Virus record (IMG/VR): IMGVR_UViG_3300020392_000079
Location: 1 to 24,094 of that record
Source of the DNA: a virus
DNA: 24,094 nt
Direction: 5' to 3' (one strand)
Part shown: positions 5,264 to 22,909 of the stretch, one piece after another
Position numbering within the stretch: position 1 is the stretch's first letter
How the letters are laid out: each line of letters begins with the position of its first letter
Translations under genes and position numbers: made by a program
Notes under the pieces: model-generated
Database searches by the model: none
Told to the model about the DNA's origin: nothing
What the model saw: the letters and a program-made list of their open reading frames with translations, nothing else

Positions 5264-6094
5264 ATGGCAAAGAGATTGATATATCAAGTTTATACCGGTA
5301 AAAGATCGAGGTTGTATGATCACTGTACGGCTTCGGTTAAGGCATACGCCGAAGATATAAATTCAAAAGAAGTACCACGTAATAAAGTCGATTACGTGAT
5401 TCAAACACAACCAATTATGAAAATCAAGCCGGACGTATTTGCCACAAATCGTAGCAAAGAATCATACGAAAAATATGGTGGTTTCTTACCTATCTTTGAA
5501 AAAGAAAATGCTTTTGATTATTGGGCCAAGTATGATCAAATTTGTATAATAGATGCTGATATATGGATAAGACCCGGCACGCCAAACATATTTAATGAAA
5601 TGAACCACTCAACAGAATTTGCCGGCGTCGTGGAAAGAACTGCACCTATCTTACCATGGTACAAAGAAAAACTTAAAGGCTATACAAGAATGCAGTATGG
5701 CACCCTACAAGACGTAGATTGGAAGTGGAACGAATCAGGTGGCCACTTTTTTAATATGGGCATGATGTTAATGAACAGACATTTAGTATTGTACTTGCCT
5801 GTACAATCAAACGGTTTACGACAGTCAGGTAAAGACTTTATTCAGAGGCCAGAGTTTAAAAGATTTGTTGACGGATTAGGTCCGTGGAAATGGAGTACGG
5901 ATCAGACACTCTTAAACTGGTGGGTTAAGAAAGAAAATATGGAATTACAAGAACTCAGTTGGAAATGGAACGCGTTATTTACTGCAATACCAAATGAAAA
6001 AATAAAAGAGGCATACTTTGTACATTTCTTTCTTAAAGATAAATTACCAAACGGTGGTGAAAATGTTGAAGAGTTAATGAAAGCTGTACAATGA
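5264..6094 (+). CDS. Glycosyltransferase, GT-A fold (GT8-like)
   Basis: A probable retaining-type sugar transferase using a nucleotide-sugar donor and Mn2+. The metal-binding DxD is at D97-A98-D99 in QICIIDADIWI. Downstream, GGHFFNMGMMLMN (about 159-171) fits the 'N-G-hh' acceptor region, STDQTLLNWW (about 216-225) fits the GT8-like DQ..LN helix, and YFVHFF near the C-terminus fits the terminal His motif. No signal or membrane segment. Ribosome-binding site AAAGGA. Its stop overlaps the next gene by ATGA, opening a chain of coupled glycan genes. Donor and acceptor are not predictable. Confidence 0.8.
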   Translation: MAKRLIYQVYTGKRSRLYDHCTASVKAYAEDINSKEVPRNKVDYVIQTQPIMKIKPDVFATNRSKESYEKYGGFLPIFEKENAFDYWAKYDQICIIDADIWIRPGTPNIFNEMNHSTEFAGVVERTAPILPWYKEKLKGYTRMQYGTLQDVDWKWNESGGHFFNMGMMLMNRHLVLYLPVQSNGLRQSGKDFIQRPEFKRFVDGLGPWKWSTDQTLLNWWVKKENMELQELSWKWNALFTAIPNEKIKEAYFVHFFLKDKLPNGGENVEELMKAVQ

Positions 6095-6435
6095 AAATTG
6101 AAATCGAAATAAGTGTCGGTGATTATCTAGACAGATTATCCATACTTAAAATAAAAGAAGAAAAAGGTTTGGATGTTGATGAAGAGATGAAATACTATCA
6201 TCACAGGTTAATTGATTTAAATGACGGTCATAATTATTATTTAAATATCATAAAAGCTATAAACTTACAGTTATGGGATTTAGAAGATGCCAAAAGAAAA
6301 GGTGTTGAAAGATATAGTAAACAAGAATCTGATACTGCCTTTTTAATTACGCAGCTTAATGACTTAAGACATGAAACTAAAAAGCGTATAGACATCTATT
6401 TTAAAAGCGATTTTACAGAAAAGAAAAGCCATTGA
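6091..6435 (+). CDS. DUF6165-like small protein of glycan clusters, 114 aa
   Basis: The N-terminus IEISVGDYLDRLSILKIKEEK resembles small proteins (DUF6165, assigned from memory) found beside bacterial surface-glycan genes, where 'S.G..(I/L)D(K/R)L(T/S)IL.IK' is the recurring block. The rest is a charged helical protein, possibly coiled coil. It lies between two glycosyltransferases with four-base overlaps on both sides (ATGA, TTGA). A scaffold or partner role for the glycosyltransferases is inference only. Confidence 0.6.
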   Translation: MKIEIEISVGDYLDRLSILKIKEEKGLDVDEEMKYYHHRLIDLNDGHNYYLNIIKAINLQLWDLEDAKRKGVERYSKQESDTAFLITQLNDLRHETKKRIDIYFKSDFTEKKSH

Positions 6436-7202
6436 AACATATCGCATTAAGATCAAAAAGTGTAAGAAGTGGTGACAGACCATATACGACTCCAGGGCTA
6501 GGTGATCGTTGCCACAGTCTCTTACTTGCGTACCAATATGGAAAGGCTCACAACTCACCGGTAACTATACATTTGACTGACGATAAGTGGAGTGTCGCTG
6601 GCGGTGTTAAATCTAGTAAAAAGAAAAAATCATGGTTTGAATTATTAAGCTTATTTCCGCATGACACTGTTTATGTAGAACCTCATCCTGTCGAAAACCT
6701 ATCCGAAGTTGATTGGATTAAATATTTAAAGAGCAAAGGGATTGATGCTTACATATATCATTACGCAGACACAATACACATGCATCCTAACGAGACACGC
6801 GTAGGTATAGAAATGTCACAGTACGTAAAAGAACTTCCGTTGTTAAAACCTACAGTAAGTAACGGTTGGTTTCCGGACGAATTTATAACGGCACAATGGG
6901 ATTCCACAGATCCAAGAAGAAGGTTATCAAAAAAAGTTATAAGAGAAATAGAAGAAAGTTATTCTGGTGTAGTTTTAAGAGTTGGTGGTGAAGGCCAAGG
7001 ATTATTAAAAGACTCTATACCACATATTGGTTTAGCAATGTCTCTTGCTACTCATCATATTGGTAGTGATTCAGGTATGATGCACATAGCACAATTATAT
7101 AAGAAATATGAAGACATACATATATATGATACACAAGATTCTTACAGATCTCACCATTTAGTAAGAGCTATTAACAATGGAAGTAAATATTATAAGGTAT
7201 AA
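6432..7202 (+). CDS. GT9-like glycosyltransferase (GT-B fold), TTG start
   Basis: A Rossmann-type N-terminus with TPGLGDRCHSLLLAYQYG (20-37). The C-terminal domain carries HHIGSDSGMMHIAQL (208-222), the donor-binding signature of ADP-heptose:LPS heptosyltransferases and related GT9 enzymes (G.DSG..H.A). At 256 aa it is shorter than typical heptosyltransferases (about 320-350), so it is a compact variant. The start is TTG at 6432, overlapping the previous TGA as TTGA; no better start is available without losing the N-terminal strand. The sugar it transfers is unknown. Confidence 0.75.
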   Translation: MKHIALRSKSVRSGDRPYTTPGLGDRCHSLLLAYQYGKAHNSPVTIHLTDDKWSVAGGVKSSKKKKSWFELLSLFPHDTVYVEPHPVENLSEVDWIKYLKSKGIDAYIYHYADTIHMHPNETRVGIEMSQYVKELPLLKPTVSNGWFPDEFITAQWDSTDPRRRLSKKVIREIEESYSGVVLRVGGEGQGLLKDSIPHIGLAMSLATHHIGSDSGMMHIAQLYKKYEDIHIYDTQDSYRSHHLVRAINNGSKYYKV

Positions 7203-7207
7203 CTATC

Positions 7208-7828
7208 ATGATGGCAACTCATACAAATAAAGACTCAATAAACATTATGCATGTGATTAAACAAGGTTCAATCGGTGCAGAGATTGGTGTTTGGATGGGT
7301 AACACTTCAACGCAGTTCTTGAAGAAAGGTCTTAAAAAGTTTTATATGGTTGATTCTTATTCTGTAGAACCATATAAAGAAAATACAGAAAGGTCTTACC
7401 AAGAATACTTAGCAAAGTATCAACCAATTACTGGTGAAATTGCAGAAGCAGGATTTCAAAAATTTTACGACAGAGTTTACAACGAAGTCAAAGAAAGATT
7501 TAAAACTATGCCAGAAGCTGAAGTTTGTAGAATGACTTCAGATGAATGGTTCGAACAGTTTATGGCAGCAAAAGGGCACGGTAATGACGAGATGCTTGAT
7601 TGGATTTACATTGATGGTGACCACTCATATGAAGGATGTTTTAAAGACTTAGAAAATGCATTACAGATTGTAAAAGAAGGTGGACTAATTTTAGGTGATG
7701 ATTATGGTTGGCCAAATGCAAAATGGTCTAAGCCGGGTGTGACGAAGGCTGTAGATGAATTTATAAATAAACATAAGTTAACAAAAATGTTGAGACACGG
7801 CGAAACACAATACGAGATACGAATATGA
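7208..7828 (+). CDS. Class I SAM-dependent methyltransferase
   Basis: Motif I is GAEIGVWMGNTS (23-34), followed by FYMVDSYS (45-52) as the motif II strand. WIYIDGDHSYEGCFKDLENA then GGLILGDDYGW is the hallmark of the Methyltransf_24 group, which commonly methylates sugars or small carbonyl compounds. All expected motifs look intact, in contrast to the degenerate paralogous-looking gene at 10498. The gene overlaps the RuBisCO-like gene by ATGA. It probably O-methylates a sugar of the glycan made by this operon. The sequence TATAAATA at 7762-7769 near its end is probably chance. Confidence 0.85.
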   Translation: MMATHTNKDSINIMHVIKQGSIGAEIGVWMGNTSTQFLKKGLKKFYMVDSYSVEPYKENTERSYQEYLAKYQPITGEIAEAGFQKFYDRVYNEVKERFKTMPEAEVCRMTSDEWFEQFMAAKGHGNDEMLDWIYIDGDHSYEGCFKDLENALQIVKEGGLILGDDYGWPNAKWSKPGVTKAVDEFINKHKLTKMLRHGETQYEIRI

Positions 7829-8964
7829 GTACAAATCCATTTGACATACCAGTTAATAATACATGGCAGCCACCTCAGGTTACTGAGCCAGTAAAAAGGT
7901 ACACTGTGACTTATGAAGTTGATGGTCCGGATATTCCAAAGATCGCACACGAGATTGCTATAGGTCAAAGCATAGGTAATCCAAACATACGCTCTGAAAT
8001 AGAAAATGCACAAAACATAAAAGATTATGCAGCTAATATTGAAAGCGTTGAAGGAAATATTGTTAAGATAAATTTTAACAGAAATGCCTTCATATGGCCA
8101 AACATCAATCAACTTATGTGTATTATTATGGGTGGTCACACAGACATACTTGGAGTTGATAAATGTAGAGTAATCGATATTGATATAGAAGTTGATAATA
8201 TTGGACCAGTTCAAGGTATGTCAGGTTGGAAAGACAGACTAGATGCACAAAACAGGCCTTTATTTGGTGCAATAATAAAACCTAAATCAGGTTTAAATAT
8301 GGAACAATACATGTCGATAGTTAAAGACATGATTTACGGTGGCGCAGATTTTATTAAAGAAGATGAAATCATGGCACAAAATTTATACTTGCCGTTAGAA
8401 AAAAGAGTCGAGGCTGTCGAACATTTAAAAAATATTTCAGGTTGGAAAGGTTTCTTTGCATACTGTATAAATGCAGATCCTATGGAATTGTTAGGTAACA
8501 TAAAAAAGATTCATTATCATACTTGCACATCAAACATTGTCGGTGGATGCCACATTAATTTTTGGTCAGGTTTAGGCGCTTACACCACTGCAAGAGGTTT
8601 CGATATTGCAACTCACTATCAGCGTTCTGGAATTAGAATATTGACTGATCCTAGTAACAAGTATTCGATCTCTTGGCCAGTTTTAGTCAAGCTTGGTTGC
8701 ATGGCAGGAATAGATAGTATGCATGTCGGTATGCTAGGTGGTTATTATCCAGAAGGTGAAAGCGAAGAAGAAACTTTAGAAGCAATATCAATATGTGAAA
8801 AATATGATGTCATACCTTCATTAAGTTGCGGTATGAATCCAGTGTTAGCAAGAGAAATTAAGGAACGTATCGGTAACAATTTTATGGCCTCAGTAGGTGG
8901 TTGGTTACACACCGGTGATAGCTTAATTAAAAAAGTAAAAGAAATGAGAGAAAGTTTAGATTAA
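7825..8964 (+). CDS. RuBisCO-like protein (large-subunit superfamily, form IV-like)
   Basis: The RuBisCO large-subunit fold is recognisable from end to end. Residues 25-123 match the N-terminal domain, with HEIAIGQSIGN (42-52) in place of AxEQStGTW. RPLFGAIIKPKSGL (144-157) contains the equivalents of K175 and K177. YGGADFIKEDE (171-181) keeps the carbamylated lysine and both metal ligands (K178, D180, E181). IATHYQRSG keeps the H294 equivalent but has Tyr for R295, and MHVG (299-302) keeps H327. Loop 6 is GMLGGYYPEG, so the catalytic lysine K334 is gone. SLSCG replaces SGG at 332-336. The loop holding N123 is MGGHTD. Metal site kept with carboxylase residues lost predicts an enolase- or isomerase-type RLP, not a CO2-fixing enzyme. 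The gene is coupled to a methyltransferase and a sugar nucleotidyltransferase, suggesting a sugar-acid or sugar-phosphate substrate. Confidence 0.9.
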   Translation: MSTNPFDIPVNNTWQPPQVTEPVKRYTVTYEVDGPDIPKIAHEIAIGQSIGNPNIRSEIENAQNIKDYAANIESVEGNIVKINFNRNAFIWPNINQLMCIIMGGHTDILGVDKCRVIDIDIEVDNIGPVQGMSGWKDRLDAQNRPLFGAIIKPKSGLNMEQYMSIVKDMIYGGADFIKEDEIMAQNLYLPLEKRVEAVEHLKNISGWKGFFAYCINADPMELLGNIKKIHYHTCTSNIVGGCHINFWSGLGAYTTARGFDIATHYQRSGIRILTDPSNKYSISWPVLVKLGCMAGIDSMHVGMLGGYYPEGESEEETLEAISICEKYDVIPSLSCGMNPVLAREIKERIGNNFMASVGGWLHTGDSLIKKVKEMRESLD

Positions 8965-9701
8965 TGAAACTGATATTACCTATGGCCGGAAACGGTCAAA
9001 GATTTTTTGATGATGGATATGACTTACCTAAACCACTAATCGATATAAAAGGCAAACCAATGTTTGTGCGAGTGATTGAAAACTTGTGGTTAGGCGATAA
9101 CATTAAACCGTGGTGTATAGTTAGACAAGACCATGTTAGCGAATATGAAATTGATAAACGTATTCTAGAACATTATCCTGATGCTCACATTATAATCATA
9201 CCGGGTACAACAGAAGGTGCAGCATGCACTGTAAGGCTGGCTACAAATGTATTAGGTGGTGAACCTATGATAGTTGCAAATTGTGATCAATTGATGCGAT
9301 GGGATCCTAAAGAGTTTTATGAAAAAATAGACAGTAATTTATATCCGGGTGGCTTGATACCAGTGTTTACGCCAAATCATAACGAACCAAAACATAGTTA
9401 CTGTAAGGTTGATGAATATGATAGTTTACTACAACTTAAAGAAAAAGAAATCATAAGCGATCTTGCAACAGTTGGCGTTTATTATTTTGCCGATGAGTGT
9501 GATTGGATTAAAGCACATGAAAAACAAATGGCTGCAAATGATAGAACAAATAATGAATTTTATTTAGCACCTACATATAATTACTTAGAAGAAAATGTTG
9601 GAGTACATCGTATAGATGAAATGATAGGAATGGGAACACCAGAAGAATTAAATGAATTTAAAAATAGTGTTTGGTGGGATAAATTGGATGAAGCCTTCTG
9701 A
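8964..9701 (+). CDS. Sugar-phosphate nucleotidyltransferase
   Basis: This enzyme activates a sugar phosphate (or similar) to an NDP- or CMP-linked donor. The N-terminal signature LPMAGNGQRFFDDGYDLPKPL (5-25) is the G-x-G-x-R...P-K loop, with R13 and K23. IIIPGTTEGAACTVRLA (77-93) is the base-recognition segment and VANCDQ (104-109) carries the metal-binding D108. The length of 245 aa fits a stand-alone catalytic domain without the left-handed helix of GlmU-type enzymes. It starts on a TAATG junction with the RuBisCO-like gene, so the RLP product and this substrate are probably linked. Base and sugar specificity cannot be read. Confidence 0.85.
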   Translation: MKLILPMAGNGQRFFDDGYDLPKPLIDIKGKPMFVRVIENLWLGDNIKPWCIVRQDHVSEYEIDKRILEHYPDAHIIIIPGTTEGAACTVRLATNVLGGEPMIVANCDQLMRWDPKEFYEKIDSNLYPGGLIPVFTPNHNEPKHSYCKVDEYDSLLQLKEKEIISDLATVGVYYFADECDWIKAHEKQMAANDRTNNEFYLAPTYNYLEENVGVHRIDEMIGMGTPEELNEFKNSVWWDKLDEAF

Positions 9702-9777
9702 GTATGCATTACTTTATATAATTTTTATTAGTATCATATTTGCCTCAGTTAGTATGATGATGGAGAAATTTTCATGA
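9688..9777 (+). CDS. Predicted 29-aa membrane micro-protein
   Basis: The frame reads MKPSEYALLYIIFISIIFAS then VSMMMEKFS, a single hydrophobic helix with a short charged end on each side. It fills the only sizeable gap in the glycan operon, overlaps the nucleotidyltransferase end by 14 bp and meets the next gene by ATGA. The ribosome-binding site is weak (GGTGGGAT about 10 bases upstream). A comparable 28-aa membrane peptide lies at 19152. The frame could be fortuitous, but junctions and hydrophobicity favour a real gene. Confidence 0.45.
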   Translation: MKPSEYALLYIIFISIIFASVSMMMEKFS

Positions 9778-10505
9778 AACCAGCGATTTGTATATCTGGC
9801 TTAGCTAGAGGTAACGTTAAAAGAAATATCAATCATTTAAAAAAAGCATTTCCTGACATACCAATATTCTTTTCTTCATGGAACGAAACTAAGAATAGTA
9901 TATCAGAAAAATGTAATTCATCATATTATCCTGAACCACAAATGCATTACAATCCATGGAAAGATTGTGTAACCGATAATCCACATCCAAAATATCACGC
10001 ATACAAAAAAATGTTTATCGATAAAACTGGCGTATCGCATCAAGCTAAGTTAATGAATGCCACCAAACAATTGATTGCGCATGCTTATCAGTTGGCAGAT
10101 ATACCAGAAGAATATGATATGATTATCAGAACAAGATGGGATACTGTTGTTTCTGACAGAGCAGATTTTAGTAAGTACCTAGAACAATCTTACAATGAAA
10201 AAATTGCCATAGGATTTGCAATTCGTGGTGGTAGATGGATTTATTTAAATAAGTTTAAAGATATTGAACACGTCTTTATAACTGAAACTACAGATCAAAT
10301 GTGGAGTCGTGATTGGAGTTACTGGTTAAACGATAACCTTATATTTCATAGACGTGACGCATATGACTGTGATTTAGTTCATAAGTTACATAAAGAAAAA
10401 AAACTTTGGCCGGCTGAGTACGGTTGGTATCAAATATTAAGTGTCATGGACAATCATCATTGCGTGTACGGTGGTGCTGCACTAGAAAAGTTTTCTTATG
10501 CTTGA
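9774..10505 (+). CDS. Glycosyltransferase-like protein, 243 aa
   Basis: Starts MKPAICISGLARG, with FFSSWNETKNS at 32-42. Residues 114-123 (YDMIIRTRWD) carry the 'YD.IIR.R.D' block seen in WavE-like and phage GT-A-type sugar transferases, where the last Asp acts like a DxD residue. RDWSYWLNDNLIFHRRDAYD further on resembles the 'D.(L/I)....R' acceptor end. Soluble, without membrane segments. Preceded by GATGGAGAA as ribosome-binding site and overlapping the degenerate methyltransferase gene by 8 bp. Specificity unknown; the GT assignment is moderately sure. Confidence 0.65.
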   Translation: MKPAICISGLARGNVKRNINHLKKAFPDIPIFFSSWNETKNSISEKCNSSYYPEPQMHYNPWKDCVTDNPHPKYHAYKKMFIDKTGVSHQAKLMNATKQLIAHAYQLADIPEEYDMIIRTRWDTVVSDRADFSKYLEQSYNEKIAIGFAIRGGRWIYLNKFKDIEHVFITETTDQMWSRDWSYWLNDNLIFHRRDAYDCDLVHKLHKEKKLWPAEYGWYQILSVMDNHHCVYGGAALEKFSYA

Positions 10506-10923
10506 AGTTTTATTTAAGAGATATAAATCAAACAGAGAACAGTACTCTAGTTTTTATGAAAAAGAATTTTTTAATCATCGACACAAGGCGTTAAACTTAT
10601 TACAGGTCGGTGTGGAGAATAGCATACCTGTTTGGCTTAAGTTTCTACAGAAATGTAACGTTTATTGCATAGACGAATTTGATAAAAGACAGCCGGATAA
10701 ATATAACTACCTAAATGAAAAAAGAGTGTACTGGTCTAGATGTGACACTAGTAGCGAAAAAAGCATAAGAAACGTTATGAAAAATATTTGGAACAATCCT
10801 AGGTTTGATATTATAATAGATAATGTTAATAACTTTGCAATAACACGACAAAAAAATTTAAACAGATATTGTATCGGAAAATATTATATTGAAGATGGTG
10901 ATGATATAAGGATAGTAAAATGA
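10498..10923 (+). CDS. Degenerate, short SAM-methyltransferase-like protein
   Basis: The order LNLLQVGVENSIPVWLKFL (33-51), YCIDEFD (56-62), YWSRCD, FDIIIDN (104-110) and YYIEDGDD follows the CmcI/TylF-like methyltransferases. There the pattern is LEIGvxxGgSl..W, V.GID, GDQ, FD.IIDDGSH and YyiEDl. Motif I has lost its glycine pattern (GVENS) and DDGSH has become DNVNN. The protein ends at 141 aa, well short of a full domain, straight after the IEDG strand. The open frame and ATGA coupling on the right show it is still translated. It may be a non-catalytic remnant or regulatory partner. Confidence 0.6.
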   Translation: MLEVLFKRYKSNREQYSSFYEKEFFNHRHKALNLLQVGVENSIPVWLKFLQKCNVYCIDEFDKRQPDKYNYLNEKRVYWSRCDTSSEKSIRNVMKNIWNNPRFDIIIDNVNNFAITRQKNLNRYCIGKYYIEDGDDIRIVK

Positions 10924-11618
10924 AAGCATTTGCGATAGTTGTGCCAGATAATAAAACGTCGATGGCTGGATTTGCTGAACTTAAAGAGAGTTATGACAAG
11001 TATGGTCATGATGATGGTTTGAATATACATGAGGCGATACCGCTTGATAAAGTACAAGGTTATACTGGAGGTAACGGTTTAGTTTGGAACTATCCATGGG
11101 AAGGTAAAGAAACAGACTTAAAGAGTGGATTAATAAAATCTGCATATACAACTGCGGATCCAAGAAAACGTATCTCTTGCTTTTTAAGTCATTGGTATCT
11201 CTGGCATCACTGTAAAAAGATTGATGAAACAATATTAATATTAGAGCATGATTCTAGATTTATAAAGAAACTACCGGCTGACAGCACGTTCGCAAAATCA
11301 GATTTTGACATCATTGGTATAAATGATCCATCAATGGCTACGCGTAAATCAAAACTATATCATGACATGATTTTAGAAAGAGTAGATTTTTTCCAACCCG
11401 TTCCTAGAATAGACGAGTTTAACATACCACAAGGTTTGGCAGGTAACTCTGCTTATGTCATAAAACCAGAAGGTGCACGTAAAATGATTGATCTTGCTCA
11501 GGAATACGGTATGTGGCCAAACGATGCATTGATGTGTTATCAACTCGTACCAAAACTTGGTGTGACGCGTAATTTCTATACAAGAATACAAGGATTGAGG
11601 TCAACGACAACGCTATGA
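10920..11618 (+). CDS. GT25-like glycosyltransferase (LPS type)
   Basis: KRISCFLSHWYLWHHC (83-98) and ILILEHDSRF (105-114) match the two core blocks of GT25 LPS galactosyl/glucosyltransferases, where the second is normally 'LEDD'. Here the acidic motif is E-H-D. IPQGLAGNSAYVIKPEGARKMI (about 170-191) is the 'G..AY.i...gA..l' block, and WPNDALMCYQL has the conserved W..D. The length of 232 aa is typical. It forms a tandem pair with the next gene, which has the same EHD variant. ATGA overlaps on both sides. Confidence 0.8.
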   Translation: MKAFAIVVPDNKTSMAGFAELKESYDKYGHDDGLNIHEAIPLDKVQGYTGGNGLVWNYPWEGKETDLKSGLIKSAYTTADPRKRISCFLSHWYLWHHCKKIDETILILEHDSRFIKKLPADSTFAKSDFDIIGINDPSMATRKSKLYHDMILERVDFFQPVPRIDEFNIPQGLAGNSAYVIKPEGARKMIDLAQEYGMWPNDALMCYQLVPKLGVTRNFYTRIQGLRSTTTL

Positions 11619-12256
11619 GAATGTATGTAATTACAATAATGGAAAACGAAAGATCGGTACAGGTTGCAGACAGGTGTATAAAAAGTGGTAAAGTCTTTGG
11701 TTATGCCATAAAGAAACATAAAGCTTTTACTCCACAAAACTGCAACGTGTATGACGAACTTAAGAAACTTAAATATCCACAGGCTTTATTTCATGAAAAA
11801 TACAGCAGACCAGAGAACTGTATAGCAGGTTTTTTAAGTCATCATAGTTTGTGGCAAAAGTGTGTAAGGTCCAAAGAACCGATAGTGATATTTGAGCATG
11901 ACGCCGTGCTAGTTGGTGACATACCACAAATGATGATGTTTGACATACTAAGCTTAGGTAAGCCGTCATACGGTAAGTTTAACACACCGTCATTTATCGG
12001 ATATGGTTCTTTGGTTTCAAAGCCATATTTCCCTGGTGCACACGCATACAGACTGACGCCAAAGGGTGCACAACAACTTATAGATGAGTGTGCATTTAGT
12101 GCCGGTCCAACAGACATATACATACATTCAAGTAAGTTTACTTTAGGTGAGTACTATCCTTGGCCGGTTGAGGCAAGAGATAGTTTTACAACAATACAAC
12201 AAAAAGCAGGTTGCTACGCAAAACATAATTATGGTGAATCCTACGAAATTATATGA
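11615..12256 (+). CDS. Second GT25-like glycosyltransferase
   Basis: Paralogous in plan to the upstream gene: CIAGFLSHHSLWQKC (69-83), VIFEHDAVL (91-99), then FPGAHAYRLTPKGAQQLI (about 145-162) and GPTDIYIH with the conserved acidic residue. It also has EHD in place of EDD. At 213 aa it is slightly shorter. The sequence divergence suggests an old duplication with different specificities. It overlaps the preceding gene by ATGA and the next gene by 26 bp. Confidence 0.8.
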   Translation: MRMYVITIMENERSVQVADRCIKSGKVFGYAIKKHKAFTPQNCNVYDELKKLKYPQALFHEKYSRPENCIAGFLSHHSLWQKCVRSKEPIVIFEHDAVLVGDIPQMMMFDILSLGKPSYGKFNTPSFIGYGSLVSKPYFPGAHAYRLTPKGAQQLIDECAFSAGPTDIYIHSSKFTLGEYYPWPVEARDSFTTIQQKAGCYAKHNYGESYEII

Positions 12257-12881
12257 TGAAGCTTTTTTAACCGGGTGTGACAGTGGTCATGAGTGGATAC
12301 TTCCATGGTTTTTAAAGAACTTTAAAAAACACTGTAAGAAACCTTTAGTGTTTGCTGACTTTGGATTGTCTGATCTAGGCCGTGCAGTTGTAAGAGAAAA
12401 CGTACACGCTGTTATGGATTTAACTAAAGTTGAACAACGAGGGTGGTTTAAGAAACCATTATCAATGTATAAGTGTCCATCTAAAAAAACAGTTTGGATT
12501 GATACTGATTGTGAAGTAAGAGACAACATAGATGATATATTTAATTTGTTAGAGCCACAAAAATTAGCTATGGTGGAAGATAAACCGTGGACTAAGAGAC
12601 GAGGCCACAGGTGGCACAACTCTGGTGTCGTAGGATTTGTTGACAAACCGACGATACTTGGACAATGGGTAGCAGCAACAAAAAATAATATGGATCAAAT
12701 AGGAGATCAAGAAGTACTTGATAAGATACTAAATCCTATTACTAAAATTAGTAAGATTCAAGATTTACCTAATGAGTATAATGTTATGAGGTTACAACTA
12801 ACTGACGGTTATACCGGTAAAATAAGAATAATGCATTGGACTGGACAGAAAGGTAAAGAAACAATAAGAGGTATGTTATGA
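12231..12881 (+). CDS. Glycosyltransferase, GT-A fold with DxD (GT8-like)
   Basis: KKTVWIDTDCEVRDNI (85-100) carries the DxD metal motif at D91-T-D93. HNSGVVGFV (about 122-130) is the 'NSGv' acceptor block, and QIGDQEVLDKILN (about 150-162) matches the D-Q helix. A terminal IMHWTGQKGK fits the 'H..g..KPW'-like end of GT8. The length is 216 aa. I chose the ATG at 12231 because an upstream in-frame start at 12147 would only add residues from inside the preceding gene. It shares architecture with the GT at 5264 but is clearly divergent. Confidence 0.75.
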   Translation: MVNPTKLYDEAFLTGCDSGHEWILPWFLKNFKKHCKKPLVFADFGLSDLGRAVVRENVHAVMDLTKVEQRGWFKKPLSMYKCPSKKTVWIDTDCEVRDNIDDIFNLLEPQKLAMVEDKPWTKRRGHRWHNSGVVGFVDKPTILGQWVAATKNNMDQIGDQEVLDKILNPITKISKIQDLPNEYNVMRLQLTDGYTGKIRIMHWTGQKGKETIRGML

Positions 12882-13504
12882 AGGTAGTACATATAGTTGG
12901 TAACGGTGATCAAGCAAGCTTATTCCATAAAGAGCAACGTAACGGCATGAAGTTAACCTGTAATATTCCACCATGGCCAGTCGCAGGAGCTTACGGAACT
13001 ATCATGGTTGATTTTAAAATGATGCGTGCATTGCATGAAGGTTCATTAACTATTCCTGGCGATTGGATATTAGGAATGAGGCCAAAGATTTGGATGGATC
13101 AACAACCTACTTTTTATGTAAAGCATTCTCACCAAGTCAAAGAATTTTACACTGTACTTCCAAAGTACGTGGCAAACTATACAGACTTCAATTGTGGTCA
13201 CATGGCAGTGCACTATGCAGCAAACAAGGTTAAAGCAGATGAAATACATATGTATGGCTTTGACTCTATATTTGATTTTAATCTTAGAAGTTGTTCTGAT
13301 TTCTATCTTAATTCAGATAGAGGTAACATGAATACCAACAGGTTAGCAAACAATTGGCGACCGGTTTGGCAAAACATGTTTAAAGAATTTCCAAACACTA
13401 AGTTTATAATGCATCATATTCATGATGCAGTTAAATTTCCAGTACCTGATAACGTTTCAGTAAAAACGTACGAATCTAAAGCTAAAATGGATTTAGTTAA
13501 CTAG
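12878..13504 (+). CDS. Conserved glycan-cluster protein, GT29/42-like N-terminus
   Basis: The N-terminus VVHIVGNGDQASLF (3-16) is a glycine-turn nucleotide-binding strand, followed by a CNIPPWP block and IMVDFKMM. The middle has DEIHMYGFDSIFDFN (about 121-135), a 'hh.YGFD' motif I associate with sialyltransferase-like or MAF/DUF115-like proteins of glycan loci. It ends the coupled operon (ATGA overlap on the left), and only intergenic DNA with a new promoter follows. Soluble. A transferase role is plausible from position and motif, but the family is uncertain. Confidence 0.55.
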   Translation: MKVVHIVGNGDQASLFHKEQRNGMKLTCNIPPWPVAGAYGTIMVDFKMMRALHEGSLTIPGDWILGMRPKIWMDQQPTFYVKHSHQVKEFYTVLPKYVANYTDFNCGHMAVHYAANKVKADEIHMYGFDSIFDFNLRSCSDFYLNSDRGNMNTNRLANNWRPVWQNMFKEFPNTKFIMHHIHDAVKFPVPDNVSVKTYESKAKMDLVN

Positions 13505-15577: not shown

Positions 15578-15589
15578 TAGTACATTAAA

Positions 15590-15638
15590 CGTTCACCCGA
15601 AAGGGCGGAAGTAGGCAGTCGCTGAAGGAACGCACCTA
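15590..15638 (+). ncRNA. Glutamine riboswitch (Downstream-peptide/glnA class)
   Basis: P1 is CGTTC (15590-15594) paired with GAACG (15628-15632). P2 is CCC-GAAA-GGG (15596-15605). The invariant core CGGAAGTA (15606-15613) follows. P3 is GGC/GCT with loop AGTC (15614-15623), and then the conserved CTGAAGGAACGC (15622-15633). These are the conserved parts of the glutamine-binding Downstream-peptide and glnA RNAs. AGG (15613-15615) can pair with CCT (15635-15637) as the pseudoknot. The alternative partner of CACCT (15633-15637) is the ribosome-binding site GGGTG (15654-15658). It is followed by a tiny open frame, as the class name implies. Confidence 0.9.
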
Positions 15639-15662
15639 ACCATTAACTAGGGAGGGTGACTA

Positions 15663-15767
15663 ATGACTTACAGACCATATTCTTGGAAGAGGTTTTGTCA
15701 GGCGCGAGATCGTGCTAGAGTTCATAGAATTCTAAACTATCGTCTGCGCTATTTTCAAGCAGCCTAA
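15663..15767 (+). CDS. Riboswitch-controlled arginine-rich micro-protein, 34 aa
   Basis: The frame begins MTYRPYSWKRFCQARDRARV and ends RYFQAA. It has eight arginines, one lysine, one histidine and a single acidic residue, so it is strongly basic and probably helical from residue 8 on. The ribosome-binding site AGGGAGGGTG is among the strongest in the window and lies between riboswitch and ATG. Short basic proteins behind glutamine-responsive RNAs include the cyanobacterial glutamine synthetase inactivating factors (IF7/IF17), which bind the enzyme through arginines. A similar action on host glutamine synthetase is inference; no clear sequence identity to IF7 is visible. The stop overlaps the convergent minus-strand gene. 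Confidence 0.8.
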   Translation: MTYRPYSWKRFCQARDRARVHRILNYRLRYFQAA

Positions 15768-16386: not shown

Positions 16387-16758
16387 CTATTTTTTAATTG
16401 AATTTAAACTATCGACAACATCATCTATACTTGGTTCTTTACCCCATGGATTATATACACACTTATATTGAGAAGGACAATTATCTTCGTACATTAAGGT
16501 AAATGTTTTATTACCACCTTGATATATGCAAGCCTGTCTACCAGTAACACGAGATTTTATTCTTTTATACAACCTGCATGTCGTGTATTTCTTTTTTTTA
16601 GTGTCTATGCCTCTATTTATTTTTTGTTGATGTGTGTAAGATTTTTTAGTGCCATACTTTGGATCTTTTGGCTCGTATATTTTACCACCTGCATGAGCCA
16701 CAATTGTCAACGCAAATATCAAAAATATTATGGTAAATGTAGTCAGCCATATTTTCAT
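16387..16758 (-). CDS. Exported small protein with signal peptide, 123 aa
   Basis: The first 23 residues (KIWLTTFTIIFLIFALTIVA then HAG) form a clear signal peptide with an AHA cleavage site. The mature part is basic and Lys/Tyr-rich (KIYEPKDPKYGTKKSYTHQQ) and has four cysteines (TTCRLY, QACIYQ, DNCPSQYKCVY), probably two disulfides. The last 15 residues form a helix (SIDDVVDSLNSIKK). ATGA overlap with the phosphatase gene. Probably periplasmic; function not recognised. Confidence 0.7.
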   Translation of the reverse strand: MKIWLTTFTIIFLIFALTIVAHAGGKIYEPKDPKYGTKKSYTHQQKINRGIDTKKKKYTTCRLYKRIKSRVTGRQACIYQGGNKTFTLMYEDNCPSQYKCVYNPWGKEPSIDDVVDSLNSIKK

Positions 16759-17342
16759 TCATTGCTCTTTCCGTAATCTGCTTTATTCATTAATGGAAAC
16801 ATTTTTTCTGCAAGAAGATTACCAGCGTCATAGTCTTGCATGTAATGAAAACCTGCCAACACTCTACCAAACCCACATTCCTTTGCTGCCTCGATAACTC
16901 CTTCTCTATGTTGTGGAAATTTTGACGCTACGTATAACGCAACTAACATCGACTGCGTAGCGTGTCCACTAGGATATGAATAAGTTTTATTTGTTTTACT
17001 TGTCATAGGAACTATACTCTTATCGTAGTCAAACGGTCTTGTAAGTTTAAATCTATTTTTAAAATATGCAATGGTTGGATTTGCGTGTGATACAATGTCA
17101 TTCATTTCATTGTCATGGAACATCATATCGTTCTTCTTACAATACTGCTCTATCGCGTAGAATGGTTGCTCGTCATGTATACGTATTGATCTTTCATTTT
17201 CTGGTGTTCGCCTAGTCATTAACTCTTTTAATCTTTTGACTGCTGAGTCTAAATCTGTGTTAGGACTCGGTAAAGTAATATCAGTTAATGGTGTATCTGG
17301 AAAGAACCGAAAGTCTTCCATAAAATATTTAAAGTTCATCAT
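16755..17342 (-). CDS. PAP2-family acid phosphatase
   Basis: All three PAP2 motifs are present: K95-x6-R102-P103 (KNRFKLTRP), PSGH at 124-127, and R160-x5-H166-x3-D170 (RVLAGFHYMQD). The layout and the lack of transmembrane helices match soluble class A acid phosphatases (PhoN type), though no signal peptide is evident. It would remove phosphate from an organic ester or lipid headgroup. I chose the ATG at 17342; an open frame to 17438 only reads into the upstream gene. The start is 5 bp after the upstream stop. Possible roles are phosphate scavenging in phosphate-poor sea water or editing of a lipid or sugar phosphate. Confidence 0.85.
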   Translation of the reverse strand: MMNFKYFMEDFRFFPDTPLTDITLPSPNTDLDSAVKRLKELMTRRTPENERSIRIHDEQPFYAIEQYCKKNDMMFHDNEMNDIVSHANPTIAYFKNRFKLTRPFDYDKSIVPMTSKTNKTYSYPSGHATQSMLVALYVASKFPQHREGVIEAAKECGFGRVLAGFHYMQDYDAGNLLAEKMFPLMNKADYGKSNE

Positions 17343-17347
17343 TTTTG

Positions 17348-17830
17348 TTATATAATACCTTGTGCTTTTAGAGCCATGGCTACCAACCAAACTAAGAAAG
17401 CACCACAACCTCCGACACCAATAATAATTGCCGTCCACTCTACGATTTGTCTTTGTCGTTCTTTCTGTTCGTATATCATCTTCTGTCGTTTCTTTCTTAT
17501 CGCACCTTCAGTGGCAAGTAACTCTTCCCATGCCTGTGGACCACGCGTTAATGATATAATTTGTTTCAATTGATACCTCATATCCTCGGCTTTCTTTTTA
17601 GCCATGAATGACGCCATTGCCTCTTCTTCGACTGAATTCGCCGCAAATAGTTTTTTAAACAACGGCGGTTTCTTTGCGTATTCACCAGCTTTATCGATGT
17701 CCGATACTGAACCCATCCAACGACTTAAATCGCCAGACATTGACTCGATATCTCTACCAACTTCAAAACCTTTTTTGATTGCGTTAAATGCAGTGGTAGC
17801 TGCAGCCAACGCGGTAACTGGATCTATCAT
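17348..17830 (-). CDS. Conserved marine-phage membrane-anchored protein, 160 aa
   Basis: Starts MIDPVTALAAATTAFNAIKK, a pattern I know from many T4-like marine phages. A helical charged middle follows (about 60-130, including MIYEQKERQRQIVEW), then one strongly hydrophobic helix at about 132-153 (TAIIIGVGGCGAFLVWLVAMA). The topology is probably a long helical domain plus a C-terminal anchor. Ribosome-binding site AGAGGAAT. It is first in the minus-strand block, divergent from the tmRNA. The role is unknown; a structural or membrane-associated role is possible. Confidence 0.7.
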   Translation of the reverse strand: MIDPVTALAAATTAFNAIKKGFEVGRDIESMSGDLSRWMGSVSDIDKAGEYAKKPPLFKKLFAANSVEEEAMASFMAKKKAEDMRYQLKQIISLTRGPQAWEELLATEGAIRKKRQKMIYEQKERQRQIVEWTAIIIGVGGCGAFLVWLVAMALKAQGII

Positions 17831-17869
17831 TCGTTATTCCTCTTCTTCATACTATTTATAAAAAAAAGG

Positions 17870-17898
17870 TGTACAAACGGCATTTTATGTGGTATAAT
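17870..17898 (+). promoter_or_regulatory. Sigma-70-type promoter of the tmRNA gene
   Basis: TGTACA (17870-17875), a 17-nt spacer, TATAAT (17893-17898) with a TGG extended -10. Transcription would begin near 17905, directly before the acceptor half of the tmRNA. TGTACA is a palindrome; the overlapping TTGTAC on the other strand with TAGTAT 16 nt away (17849-17854) could drive the divergent gene at 17830. Confidence 0.8.
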
Positions 17899-17910
17899 AT
17901 ATACTATATA

Positions 17911-18174
17911 ACGATGAAGCAAAGCGAATGGTTCGCTGGACTCGGGGGCGGTACCCGACAGCTCCACCAAAAACACTCGATTATCGCGAGTAGTTTTGAT
18001 GGGGCTGAAATAGGATCGACAGGTACAATAGCGATGTGGAGTTATCCGGATGTAAGCTCGGTTAATGCGAACAAAACTCTAAATGCAAACGATAATTTTG
18101 CACCTCAGGAGTTCGCTCAAGCAGCGTAATTCCTATGCGCCCGGAGAGAGCGTGGAAACAGAATCTCTCCACTT
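17911..18174 (+). ncRNA. ssrA: Permuted (two-piece) tmRNA, alphaproteobacterial type
   Basis: The acceptor half comes first: GACTCGGGGGCGGTACCCG gives a T-stem CGGG/CCCG with a seven-base loop (17943-17957), then AGCTCC and an encoded ACCA (17960-17969). After an intervening hairpin (17967-17999) the coding half begins with GGGGCT (18001-18006), which pairs with AGCTCC as the acceptor stem. GATCGACAGG is the usual conserved tmRNA start region. AGCGA (18030-18034) can pair with TCGCT (17933-17937) as P2. The tag frame is at 18085-18129, and a 7-bp hairpin/pseudoknot (18143-18172) closes the RNA. The outer ends are estimates. The RNA rescues stalled ribosomes with SmpB, here presumably the host protein. 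Confidence 0.93.
18085..18129 (+). other. tmRNA tag reading frame
   Basis: From the resume codon GCA the frame encodes ANDNFAPQEFAQAA and stops at TAA. The ANDN start and AA end match alphaproteobacterial SsrA tags. The hydrophobic Leu/Val-Ala-Ala ending common in host tags is replaced by Gln-Ala-Ala. The exact resume codon is inferred from the family pattern. Confidence 0.88.
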
Positions 18175-19151: not shown

Positions 19152-19238
19152 ATGGCACCAAACCCACACTATGTTAATATGTTAATTAATTTTAGTATAC
19201 TTGGTACGTTGATTTACGTTGCATTGCAAGTATCATGA
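19152..19238 (+). CDS. Predicted 28-aa membrane micro-protein
   Basis: The frame reads MAPNPHYVNMLINFSILGTL then IYVALQVS, one hydrophobic helix. A very good GGAGAAAG ribosome-binding site stands before the ATG, and the stop overlaps the desaturase start as ATGA, so it is probably translated and coupled to the desaturase. It could be a small membrane subunit or stabiliser for that enzyme; this is inferred from position only. Confidence 0.65.
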   Translation: MAPNPHYVNMLINFSILGTLIYVALQVS

Positions 19239-19750
19239 CAACTTACTTATTATATTTAATATTGGCAACCATTGGAGCAAGTTTTGGCTTACACCGATAC
19301 TGGGCTCATGGCCAAGGAAAAAGAAGAGTGTGGTATGAATGGCTATCGCTGTCGTGCGCACTATGTATAGGCGTGTACAAACCACTAGGCTGGGTTGGTA
19401 CGCACAGACTTCATCATAAGTACTCTGACACGCCCAATGATCCACACTCTCCTAAATATCAAGGAGCGTGGAACGTATTGTTATCAAGATGGGATAAACC
19501 TATTCCTATATCGATGATTAGAGACGTAGTTAAAAACAAAAGAATAAAGTTCTTTCAAAGATACGGAAAGTATCTCATATGGCCAGTTATAGTATTGTCG
19601 CCTATGACCATACTGTTAGGTTATGCAGGAATAGGAATACTGAACTACTTTGGTCATCAAGAAGGAAAGCCAATGAATCGTTGGTTTATTAATATATTAG
19701 CACCATTTGAAGGAAATCATGACACCCACCACGTTCGCAGCAAATTTTAA
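19235..19750 (+). CDS. Minimal membrane fatty-acid desaturase
   Basis: The three histidine boxes of delta-9-type membrane desaturases are present: HRYWAH (20-25), THRLHHKYSD (56-65) and NHDTHH (161-166). Hydrophobic segments at 3-19, 36-52 and 113-138 provide the membrane anchors. The enzyme would introduce a double bond into acyl chains using O2 and a di-iron centre. At 171 aa it is much shorter than bacterial enzymes (about 250-300) and ends only five residues after box three. Desaturases are known in T4-like cyanophages. Overlaps the 28-aa gene (ATGA) and the next gene (32 bp). Confidence 0.85.
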   Translation: MTTYLLYLILATIGASFGLHRYWAHGQGKRRVWYEWLSLSCALCIGVYKPLGWVGTHRLHHKYSDTPNDPHSPKYQGAWNVLLSRWDKPIPISMIRDVVKNKRIKFFQRYGKYLIWPVIVLSPMTILLGYAGIGILNYFGHQEGKPMNRWFINILAPFEGNHDTHHVRSKF

Positions 19751-21587: not shown

Positions 21588-22073
21588 TTGGAAGACTACT
21601 ACATAATTCTTAATCTCAACTATTCATCTCAAATGCTTATAGATGAATCATTTAGAGTTCGTTACAAACCATTTGAAATTGATAAAAAGTCAAACTCTTG
21701 GTTCGACTATGCGCCTACTTGGATGCAAGGGCGAATCATCGATACGAAACTGTACTCTGAAATTCACCGGTTGACAAATGTTATCAAAGAGAAGAGCGGT
21801 GCGCGTGATGTACGACCGCGATTCTACAGACAAGAAAAAAATACGCACGTGCCGATGCACGCCGATGTTAATACAAAGTGTTGTATTAACGTTATATTGT
21901 CGGAAAAAGCAGCGCCAATCGTATTTGAAGATATCGGTGAAGTGAACTATAAATGTGCACTTCTCAACATCACAAAAAGACACATGGTACCTCAATTTGA
22001 AGATGAAAGACTACTACTTAAGTTTTCGATATTTGATAAGACATATGAAGAAGTTAAGAGATGCATGATTTAA
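21588..22073 (+). CDS. 2OG-Fe(II) oxygenase-like protein 3, TTG start
   Basis: H91-x-D93 (PMHADVN), H132 (KRHMVPQ) and R141 (ERLLLKFSIF). The spacing (41 residues between first and distal His, then 9 to Arg) is identical in genes 4 and 5. A CCINVIL strand and a CALLNITK strand are also shared. The start is TTG at 21588 with GAGG ten bases upstream; no ATG is available in frame. Length 161 aa, a minimal barrel without an N-terminal domain. Overlaps gene 4 by 13 bp. Confidence 0.75.
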   Translation: MEDYYIILNLNYSSQMLIDESFRVRYKPFEIDKKSNSWFDYAPTWMQGRIIDTKLYSEIHRLTNVIKEKSGARDVRPRFYRQEKNTHVPMHADVNTKCCINVILSEKAAPIVFEDIGEVNYKCALLNITKRHMVPQFEDERLLLKFSIFDKTYEEVKRCMI

Positions 22074-22522
22074 TATATCACTGTGACGTTGGTTTCGATA
22101 AGAAGAGATTACTACAAGAGTACCACGAACTTAAAACGTCTCAATTCAGTAAGCTTAATCCTGAATGGAAGAAGACACACGCATCTGGTCCATACGGTAG
22201 TCAGATACGCGATAAGTTTAGTGCGGTTGTCGGGTACTATCATCAACCCGCAGGCACCGTGATACGGTCTCATACTGACACTTCGTGCTGCTGTAGAATT
22301 AACGTAAGACTGACGAATGACGACAGTAAACTCATAGTAGATGGAGCGGAATATTACTATGAAACTGCTTTAATTAATGTAAGTAAGTACGCACATTCCG
22401 TGTCTCAATCAAGTCAAGAGCGAATACTATTTAGCGTCATCTTTAATGAGAAATTTGACTCGGTCAAGAACCTGATTCATAGAATGTCTCAGACAGAACT
22501 TCAATATCAACCTGTGATTTGA
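22061..22522 (+). CDS. 2OG-Fe(II) oxygenase-like protein 4
   Basis: H71-x-D73 (IRSHTDTS), H112 (KYAHSVS), R121 (ERILFSVIFN). It shares the CCCRINVRL and TALINVSK strands with gene 3. An N-terminal block (IYHCDVGFDKKRLLQEYHEL) is typical of small phage oxygenase-like proteins. Length 153 aa. The last 96 bp overlap the opposing gene 5 tail-to-tail. Confidence 0.75.
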   Translation: MHDLIYHCDVGFDKKRLLQEYHELKTSQFSKLNPEWKKTHASGPYGSQIRDKFSAVVGYYHQPAGTVIRSHTDTSCCCRINVRLTNDDSKLIVDGAEYYYETALINVSKYAHSVSQSSQERILFSVIFNEKFDSVKNLIHRMSQTELQYQPVI

Positions 22523-22909
22523 GTCGGGCTCAACGCCGTGATCTCTACTTCCAACATCAATCAACGCGCATTCGTACGCATAAGGTACGTGTTCGATGTG
22601 TATGATCGGTGTAGTATCTAACAAATTAATGTTGATCGACACCATCTTGTCTTCATCTTTATGGTGTTCAAGCCGAGTGTTTGGAAACTGATAACTGAAT
22701 CTCGGAAAATTGTTCATCCCGTGTATGTTCAAATCTCGTTCTACGGGTTCAATTAAAGGTTTCATGTCGTGTCCATCTGGTATCATCAACTGGTACCAAA
22801 ACAACTCACGACGGGGAGAACAACGCCAGTGCCATTGCCCTCGCTGTATATTATCGTAAAAGATATTTCGATACTTCTCTTTATCAATCTCATAGTCTAA
22901 ATGTATCAC
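22427..22909 (-). CDS. 2OG-Fe(II) oxygenase-like protein 5, opposite strand, GTG start
   Basis: H83-x-D85 (EHHKDED), H124 (SRDHGVE), R133 (HRLILKFCLR), with the same 41/9 spacing as genes 3 and 4. SININLL and CALIDVG are the matching strands. Starts with GTG at 22909 after a weak GAGAG site. It is last in a minus-strand unit of four genes. Being a close structural paralogue of the plus-strand array but inverted suggests local rearrangement or separate acquisition. Its 3' end overlaps gene 4 by 96 bp. Confidence 0.75.
   Translation of the reverse strand: MIHLDYEIDKEKYRNIFYDNIQRGQWHWRCSPRRELFWYQLMIPDGHDMKPLIEPVERDLNIHGMNNFPRFSYQFPNTRLEHHKDEDKMVSININLLDTTPIIHIEHVPYAYECALIDVGSRDHGVEPDSNHRLILKFCLRHSMNQVLDRVKFLIKDDAK

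Follow-up and report, generated by a model that had tools for sequence, protein, structure and literature searches.

The window analysed here is the whole of a 24,094-base fragment, IMG/VR virus record IMGVR_UViG_3300020392_000079 (positions 1-24,094). A gene for a RuBisCO-like protein (RLP) of 379 amino acids, assigned by Pfam, structure, active site and tree, lies at 7825..8964 on the plus strand, within a glycan operon whose other genes are on the same strand. Upstream are a glycosyltransferase family 8-like gene (5264..6094; Pfam 1.9e-05), a gene for an uncharacterised protein of 114 amino acids that overlaps its neighbours (6091..6435; from the list of ORFs), one for an uncharacterised protein of 256 amino acids with no Pfam match (6432..7202), and a Methyltransf_24/TylF-like methyltransferase gene assigned by Pfam (7208..7828).

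Downstream, a GT-A fold sugar nucleotidyltransferase gene (8964..9701; Pfam NTP_transferase 3.9e-11, 43.5 bits against a cut-off of 21.2) is followed by a gene of a family that we call SGxxR, a putative DUF7796-like glycosyltransferase (9774..10505). The protein of 141 amino acids encoded next (10498..10923) has no Pfam match and resembles in sequence longer methyltransferase-like proteins of relatives. Two glycosyltransferases of family 25 (LPS type; 10920..11618, Pfam 6.9e-11, and 11615..12256, Pfam 4.3e-11), a weak family 8-like glycosyltransferase (12231..12881; Pfam 0.0028, below the cut-off) and a conserved 'GNGD' protein (12878..13504) complete the operon. The last two are each conserved in 14 viral loci.

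The start of the RLP gene overlaps the stop of the methyltransferase gene as ATGA, and the RLP and nucleotidyltransferase genes overlap as TAATG. Judging from these overlapping codons, RLP is translationally coupled to both neighbours, as a sequence-only reading of this DNA had stated.

Fold of the RuBisCO-like protein

RLP matched the Pfam family RuBisCO_large at 3.7e-22 with 79.4 bits (cut-off 30.1), and the top match of a phmmer search against the PDB was a form III RuBisCO (7.6e-21). An AlphaFold model built from 31 family members had a pLDDT of 87.5 and showed the N-terminal alpha/beta and TIM-barrel fold of the superfamily. Foldseek matched the model to form III RuBisCO 3a12 of T. kodakaraensis (E 3.6e-24, TM 0.80). 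Superposition with VIA-align gave a Z of 38.1 for 2d69, the form III enzyme of P. horikoshii (rmsd 2.4 over 347 residues), and of 37.3 for MtnW (2oem). The Z scores of all forms lay within about 3 units of one another, so the fold alone assigns no form. The sequence-only reading, which had recognised a full-length RuBisCO-superfamily protein and proposed structure prediction and superposition as a check, is borne out by the agreement of Pfam, AlphaFold, Foldseek and VIA-align; neither profile nor structure placed the protein outside the superfamily.

Active-site residues

Alignment with the sequences of 27 reference RuBisCOs and RLPs gave the spinach RuBisCO numbering used here; the residues of the window RLP are given in parentheses. 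The metal site K201, D203 and E204 (K178, D180, E181) is complete, and K175 and K177 (K152, K154) are present. Also kept are R295, H327 and S379 (R267, H300, S334) and the glycines G381, G403 and G404 (G336, G358, G359). The changes are E60G (G47), T65N (N52), N123G (G104), H294Q (Q266), H298I (I270) and, in loop 6, K334Y (Y307). On the metal site, the loss of N123 and the lack of the carboxylation lysine in loop 6, the alignment agreed with what had been read from the sequence alone. The statement that R295 is Tyr was mistaken: this arginine is kept, the adjacent H294 is lost, and the tyrosine replaces K334.

Thirteen positions (G60, N65, G123, K175, K177, K201, E202, D203, E204, Q294, Y334, S379 and C380) were fixed in all 54 members of the clade of this RLP at nr90, in which G381 and G403 were also kept throughout. 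H294 is present in 27 of the 27 references and is Gln in every clade member; the reaction may therefore depart from plain RuBisCO-type enolisation. In the viral clade sequences, H327 was replaced by Gln in 7 of 40 and R295 by Ser in 5 of 40; thus phosphate binding may vary.

In the RuBisCO mechanism, E60, K334 and H294 serve carboxylation, and K201 with its CO2, D203, E204 and K175 serve enolisation. The residue pattern of the clade would make enolisation plausible and carboxylation not, which fits an enolase or isomerase. All four residues that we used to recognise the carboxylating forms I-III (E60, N123, H294 and K334) are replaced, and the NCBIfam cut-offs for carboxylating RuBisCO were missed (TIGR03326, 108.7 against 497 bits; NF010002, 59.2 against 489; NF003252, 102.2 against 438). 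The dN/dS of RLP was 0.04-0.10 when compared with relatives 74-92% identical, indicating purifying selection. A degenerate RuBisCO was ruled out by this value and by the fixed active-site positions.

A separate clade in phages, bacteria and archaea

In a maximum-likelihood tree with the RLP clades, the phylogeny proposed with the sequence-only reading, the clade had a support of 100. It stood apart from the forms that the references covered, namely forms I, II and III and the MtnW, MtnW-like, OiaX-like and IV-Photo/NonPhoto-like sequences; the label IV-Photo/NonPhoto was assigned by residue pattern only.

In IMG/VR, a scan for peptides specific to the clade confirmed a clade RLP on 307 viral contigs; the best 80 of these were retrieved for analysis. 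In 84,980 species genomes there were 23 loci, among them about 20 true clade members at 33-39% identity, two weak outsiders (L078 and L079) and L057, a phage contig that had been placed in a bacterial bin. The cellular members were in SAR11, an alphaproteobacterial single-cell genome, Azospirillum, Legionella, Crocinitomicaceae, Elusimicrobia, Verrucomicrobiia and DPANN archaea, which ruled out a phage-only family. Members scored 350-630 bits on the clade profile, as against 205-250 bits for archaeal form III RuBisCOs. The clade is rare in genomes: it was found in 2 of 197 Pelagibacterales and 1 of 199 Elusimicrobiota.

No RLP match was found among 50,697 phage records, so that no phage isolate there carries a clade RLP, and the BFVD collection of viral predicted structures held no RuBisCO fold. 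These results accord with the earlier statement that no described phage system was known to have this arrangement. PHROGs had no family for RLP. When a second tree was built to include more viruses, phage sequences fell at several places among the cellular ones, which suggests that phages and cells may have exchanged RLP repeatedly.

Linkage to a nucleotidyltransferase

The protein encoded at 8964..9701 has, besides its Pfam match, the GxGxRF...PKP motif and the catalytic Asp of sugar nucleotidyltransferases (family A5), and the best PDB match of its family profile was 4evw (1.3e-33). A nucleotidyltransferase of this one family lay within 3 kb of RLP in 39 of 39 viral loci at nr90 and in 13 of 13 testable cellular loci; left out of the cellular count were L071, a contig of 3.1 kb, and L077, where the gene is cut at the contig end. 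The same family was near none of 12 archaeal form III RuBisCO genes, for which the loci had about 1.5 kb of flank. The nucleotidyltransferase neighbour noticed in the window is thus linked to RLP far more strongly than could be seen from one sequence.

The methyltransferase fared differently. Of the triplet of methyltransferase, RLP and nucleotidyltransferase, which the sequence-only reading had proposed to look for in marine viral contigs, the last two held as a pair (39/39). Coupling of the methyltransferase to RLP is confined to this phage and its near relatives, and the methyltransferase is absent beside RLP in many others (for example, L028, L049 and L056). As a core part of the system it was therefore ruled out.

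Two other partners recur. A small cupin (about 107 amino acids; A8) was within 3 kb of RLP in 22 of 38 viral and 4 of 11 cellular loci, and a GDPD-like protein (about 150 amino acids; A7) within 8 kb in 25 of 38 viral and 10 of 11 cellular loci. The latter carries the motifs HRGN, EN, VExD and GHD. A GDPD function is predicted from these motifs; despite them, Foldseek gave its model weak matches (TM about 0.5). In loci L072 and L076, a full-length Pfam GDPD takes the place of the short protein. The fifth recurrent gene is SGxxR, present in 29 of 39 viral RLP loci and in 3 SAR11 loci. DUF7796 matched 6 of 24 members of the SGxxR family, for which no PDB homologue was found. Around the RLP loci there were also glycan genes for GT8, GT25, epimerases, DegT aminotransferase and LicD. 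The window fragment has RLP and the nucleotidyltransferase, and neither a cupin nor a GDPD-like gene was found in its 24,094 bases.

The gene order varied among loci. In Azospirillum oleiclasticum, the GDPD-like protein, RLP, the cupin and the nucleotidyltransferase are encoded consecutively in this order; in L059 and L066 the order is nucleotidyltransferase, cupin, RLP, GDPD-like. SAR11 has GDPD-like, nucleotidyltransferase, RLP, nucleotidyltransferase, and Legionella has RLP and nucleotidyltransferase beside LicD. This variation argues that the linkage reflects function and not shared ancestry alone. In the SAR11 loci L061-L065 and L070, the two nucleotidyltransferases flanking RLP are paralogous; that on the upstream side has diverged, with a VAGPN.EF motif and no Pfam match, and its activity may be altered.

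Proposed function

We think it rather probable that RLP is a metal-dependent isomerase or enolase of a phosphosugar that feeds nucleotide-sugar synthesis. RLP, if it is catalytic as we infer, would enolise a phosphorylated keto-sugar, presumably a phosphoketose, with a metal and probably a carbamylated lysine and with no CO2 added, and would release an isomer or epimer of the keto-sugar phosphate. This product, directly or through the cupin or GDPD-like hydrolase where present, would yield the sugar phosphate for the adjacent nucleotidyltransferase, which would link it to a nucleotide. If the steps follow in this order, the GT8 and GT25 glycosyltransferases of the operon would place the activated sugar on a glycan, and phages would use RLP to make or modify a glycan on the surface of either the host cell or the virion.

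A biosynthetic use on a sugar or sugar acid had been proposed from the neighbours in the window. Its nucleotide-sugar part was strengthened by the linkage in all 39 viral and 13 cellular loci; its methylation part was not supported, as the methyltransferase is not conserved. As counter-evidence, isolated cyanophages carry a related nucleotidyltransferase and a GDPD-like gene without RLP, so not every module of this kind needs RLP.

Caution on the enolase reading comes from H294Q, D202E and N123G, fixed departures from all reference forms, which may leave room for other chemistry. RLP might act on a nucleotide-activated or glycerophospho-linked sugar, or might catalyse a reaction other than that of an enolase (retro-aldol, decarboxylation or hydrolysis) together with the cupin and the GDPD-like protein, whose recurrence beside RLP would suit such a role; for example, it might make a branched or shortened sugar or a polyol phosphate. 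However, the substrates bound in the RuBisCO active site are small and phosphorylated, and H327 (or Gln), S379 and the glycine phosphate loops are mostly retained. We regard this alternative as possible but unlikely.

Could RLP be a catabolic or salvage auxiliary gene that is in a glycan operon by chance? Roles of this kind are established for the RLPs MtnW, the enolase of methionine salvage, and OiaX, in sugar-acid breakdown; these share the fold, and several RLPs carry out such reactions. Yet RLP scored far below the NCBIfam cut-offs for MtnW (TIGR03332, 45.4 against 513.6 bits) and OiaX (NF042437, 77.4 against 700 bits) and fell in its separate clade, no salvage genes were recognised in the annotated RLP neighbourhoods, and the nucleotidyltransferase was linked in all testable loci. 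Methyltransferases give SAH, not MTA, so that their presence does not call for MTA salvage. The scores, the tree and the gene context ruled out an assignment as MtnW or as OiaX (3-oxo-isoapionate-4-P decarboxylase), and a salvage role in general is very doubtful.

A non-catalytic or regulatory relic carried with the glycan operon, which the shortened C-terminal tail and the lack of an activity on record for the clade might suggest, is highly improbable in view of the low dN/dS and of 13 active-site positions fixed across viruses, bacteria and archaea.

Phage origin and other features of the window

The window, a fragment of a T4-like marine phage, carries ThyX, a T4-type RNase H, a phage exonuclease and an endolysin; the RNase H is 42% identical to those of Kyanoviridae cyanophages and 40% to that of Pelagibacter phage HTVC008M. 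T4 gp23, terminase or both were found on the related RLP contigs L144 (99 kb), L057 (142 kb), L151, L168, L176, L181 and L183, and the gp23 search gave no match in 14 control genomes. L057 (G001:C58), which has both gp23 and terminase, is a T4-like phage contig that binning had assigned to a Sphingobacteriales MAG. That the window is bacterial chromosome, as might be argued from the absence of capsid and terminase genes in the window fragment and from the presence of the RLP family in SAR11 genomes, is contradicted by these T4-like genes, by the IMG/VR virus record and by gp23 and terminase on the related contigs, and we give it next to no credence.

A permuted tmRNA gene of alphaproteobacterial type at 17852-18173 (+), missed by ARAGORN, was detected with Rfam (alpha_tmRNA, 126 bits; tmRNA_permuted, 118.8) and points to an alphaproteobacterial host or donor. 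A glutamine riboswitch lies at 15588-15767 (+; 54.6 bits), with an ORF of 34 amino acids at 15663-15767 (MTYRPYSWKRFCQARDRARVHRILNYRLRYFQAA). By eye, three paralogous ORFs (21588-22073, 22061-22522 and, on the minus strand, 22427-22909) look hydroxylase-like (2OG/aspartyl type), 16755-17438 (-) resembles a PAP2-type phosphatase (PSGHATQ motif) and 19235-19750 (+) a fatty-acid desaturase (HRYWAHG and HH motifs); a PHROG search gave no confirmation for the latter two.

Comparison with known systems

That clade RLPs always lie beside a sugar-activating enzyme suggests that in viruses and a few microbes the RuBisCO fold has a hitherto undescribed role in the synthesis of surface sugars. We see about an even chance that the nucleotidyltransferase, cupin, RLP and GDPD-like hydrolase form an undescribed nucleotide-sugar pathway built on RLP, with T4-like phages as a main reservoir exchanging it with SAR11 and other microbes; it would give the RuBisCO fold its first such biosynthetic role and would be the first phage system of the RuBisCO superfamily to be described. 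Several RLP clades lack a function, and here a near-absolute gene partner names the class of pathway and can direct a search for the substrate. If the proposal is true, the fold works in the synthesis of cell-surface or virion sugars, and phages of abundant marine bacteria move the cassette about. Bacteria that have all four genes of the cassette, Azospirillum among them, offer a starting point for experiments.

RLPs and the IV-GOS group were already known. What appears to be new is the cassette, with its occurrence in bacterial and archaeal genomes and its distribution among phages. This is judged by the open-licence literature, in which we found nothing relevant on RLPs as viral auxiliary genes, on RLPs in Legionella LPS or on an RLP with a nucleotidyltransferase beside it.

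Form III RuBisCO (3a12, 2d69) shares with the clade the fold over the whole domain pair, the metal-site Lys, Asp and Glu, K175, K177 and S379, and in most members H327. The clade differs in the replacement of E60, N123, H294 and K334, in its rubisco_III score (108.7 against 497 bits) and in its nucleotidyltransferase context. Form IV RLPs (MtnW, OiaX and the IV-Photo/NonPhoto type) are, like the clade, non-carboxylating members of the superfamily, and MtnW (DK-MTP-1-P enolase, form IV YkrW) shares Gly at E60. The clade is separate from them in the tree and misses their NCBIfam cut-offs; its members carry H294Q and K334Y, with K177 and S379 kept and H327 kept in most.

IV-GOS is an RLP group from ocean metagenomes, named without a function (PMC10173188), and novel GOS RLP groups have been reported (PMC1821046); we found neither a gene context nor a function for IV-GOS in these papers. 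Likened by description only, IV-GOS and our clade are both marine RLPs outside the known forms, and their source organisms (SAR11, marine phages) probably overlap. In the MTA-isoprenoid shunt of R. rubrum and R. palustris, an RLP isomerase reportedly works with a cupin protein, a pairing like that in the cassette, with the cupins likened by description only. The shunt differs in that it serves sulfur salvage and has no nucleotidyltransferase.

The Kyanoviridae cyanophages S-CAM9 and S-PRM1 (L133, 5341-8650, and L134) have a nucleotidyltransferase 39% identical to that of the window, SGxxR-like proteins and a GDPD-like gene (150 bits). They lack RLP, and their nucleotidyltransferase forms a fusion with a HAD phosphatase-like domain; the fusion lies near the GDPD-like gene, which is annotated as hypothetical pieces. 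The likeness hints that similar modules may receive different sugar phosphates from RLP and from HAD.
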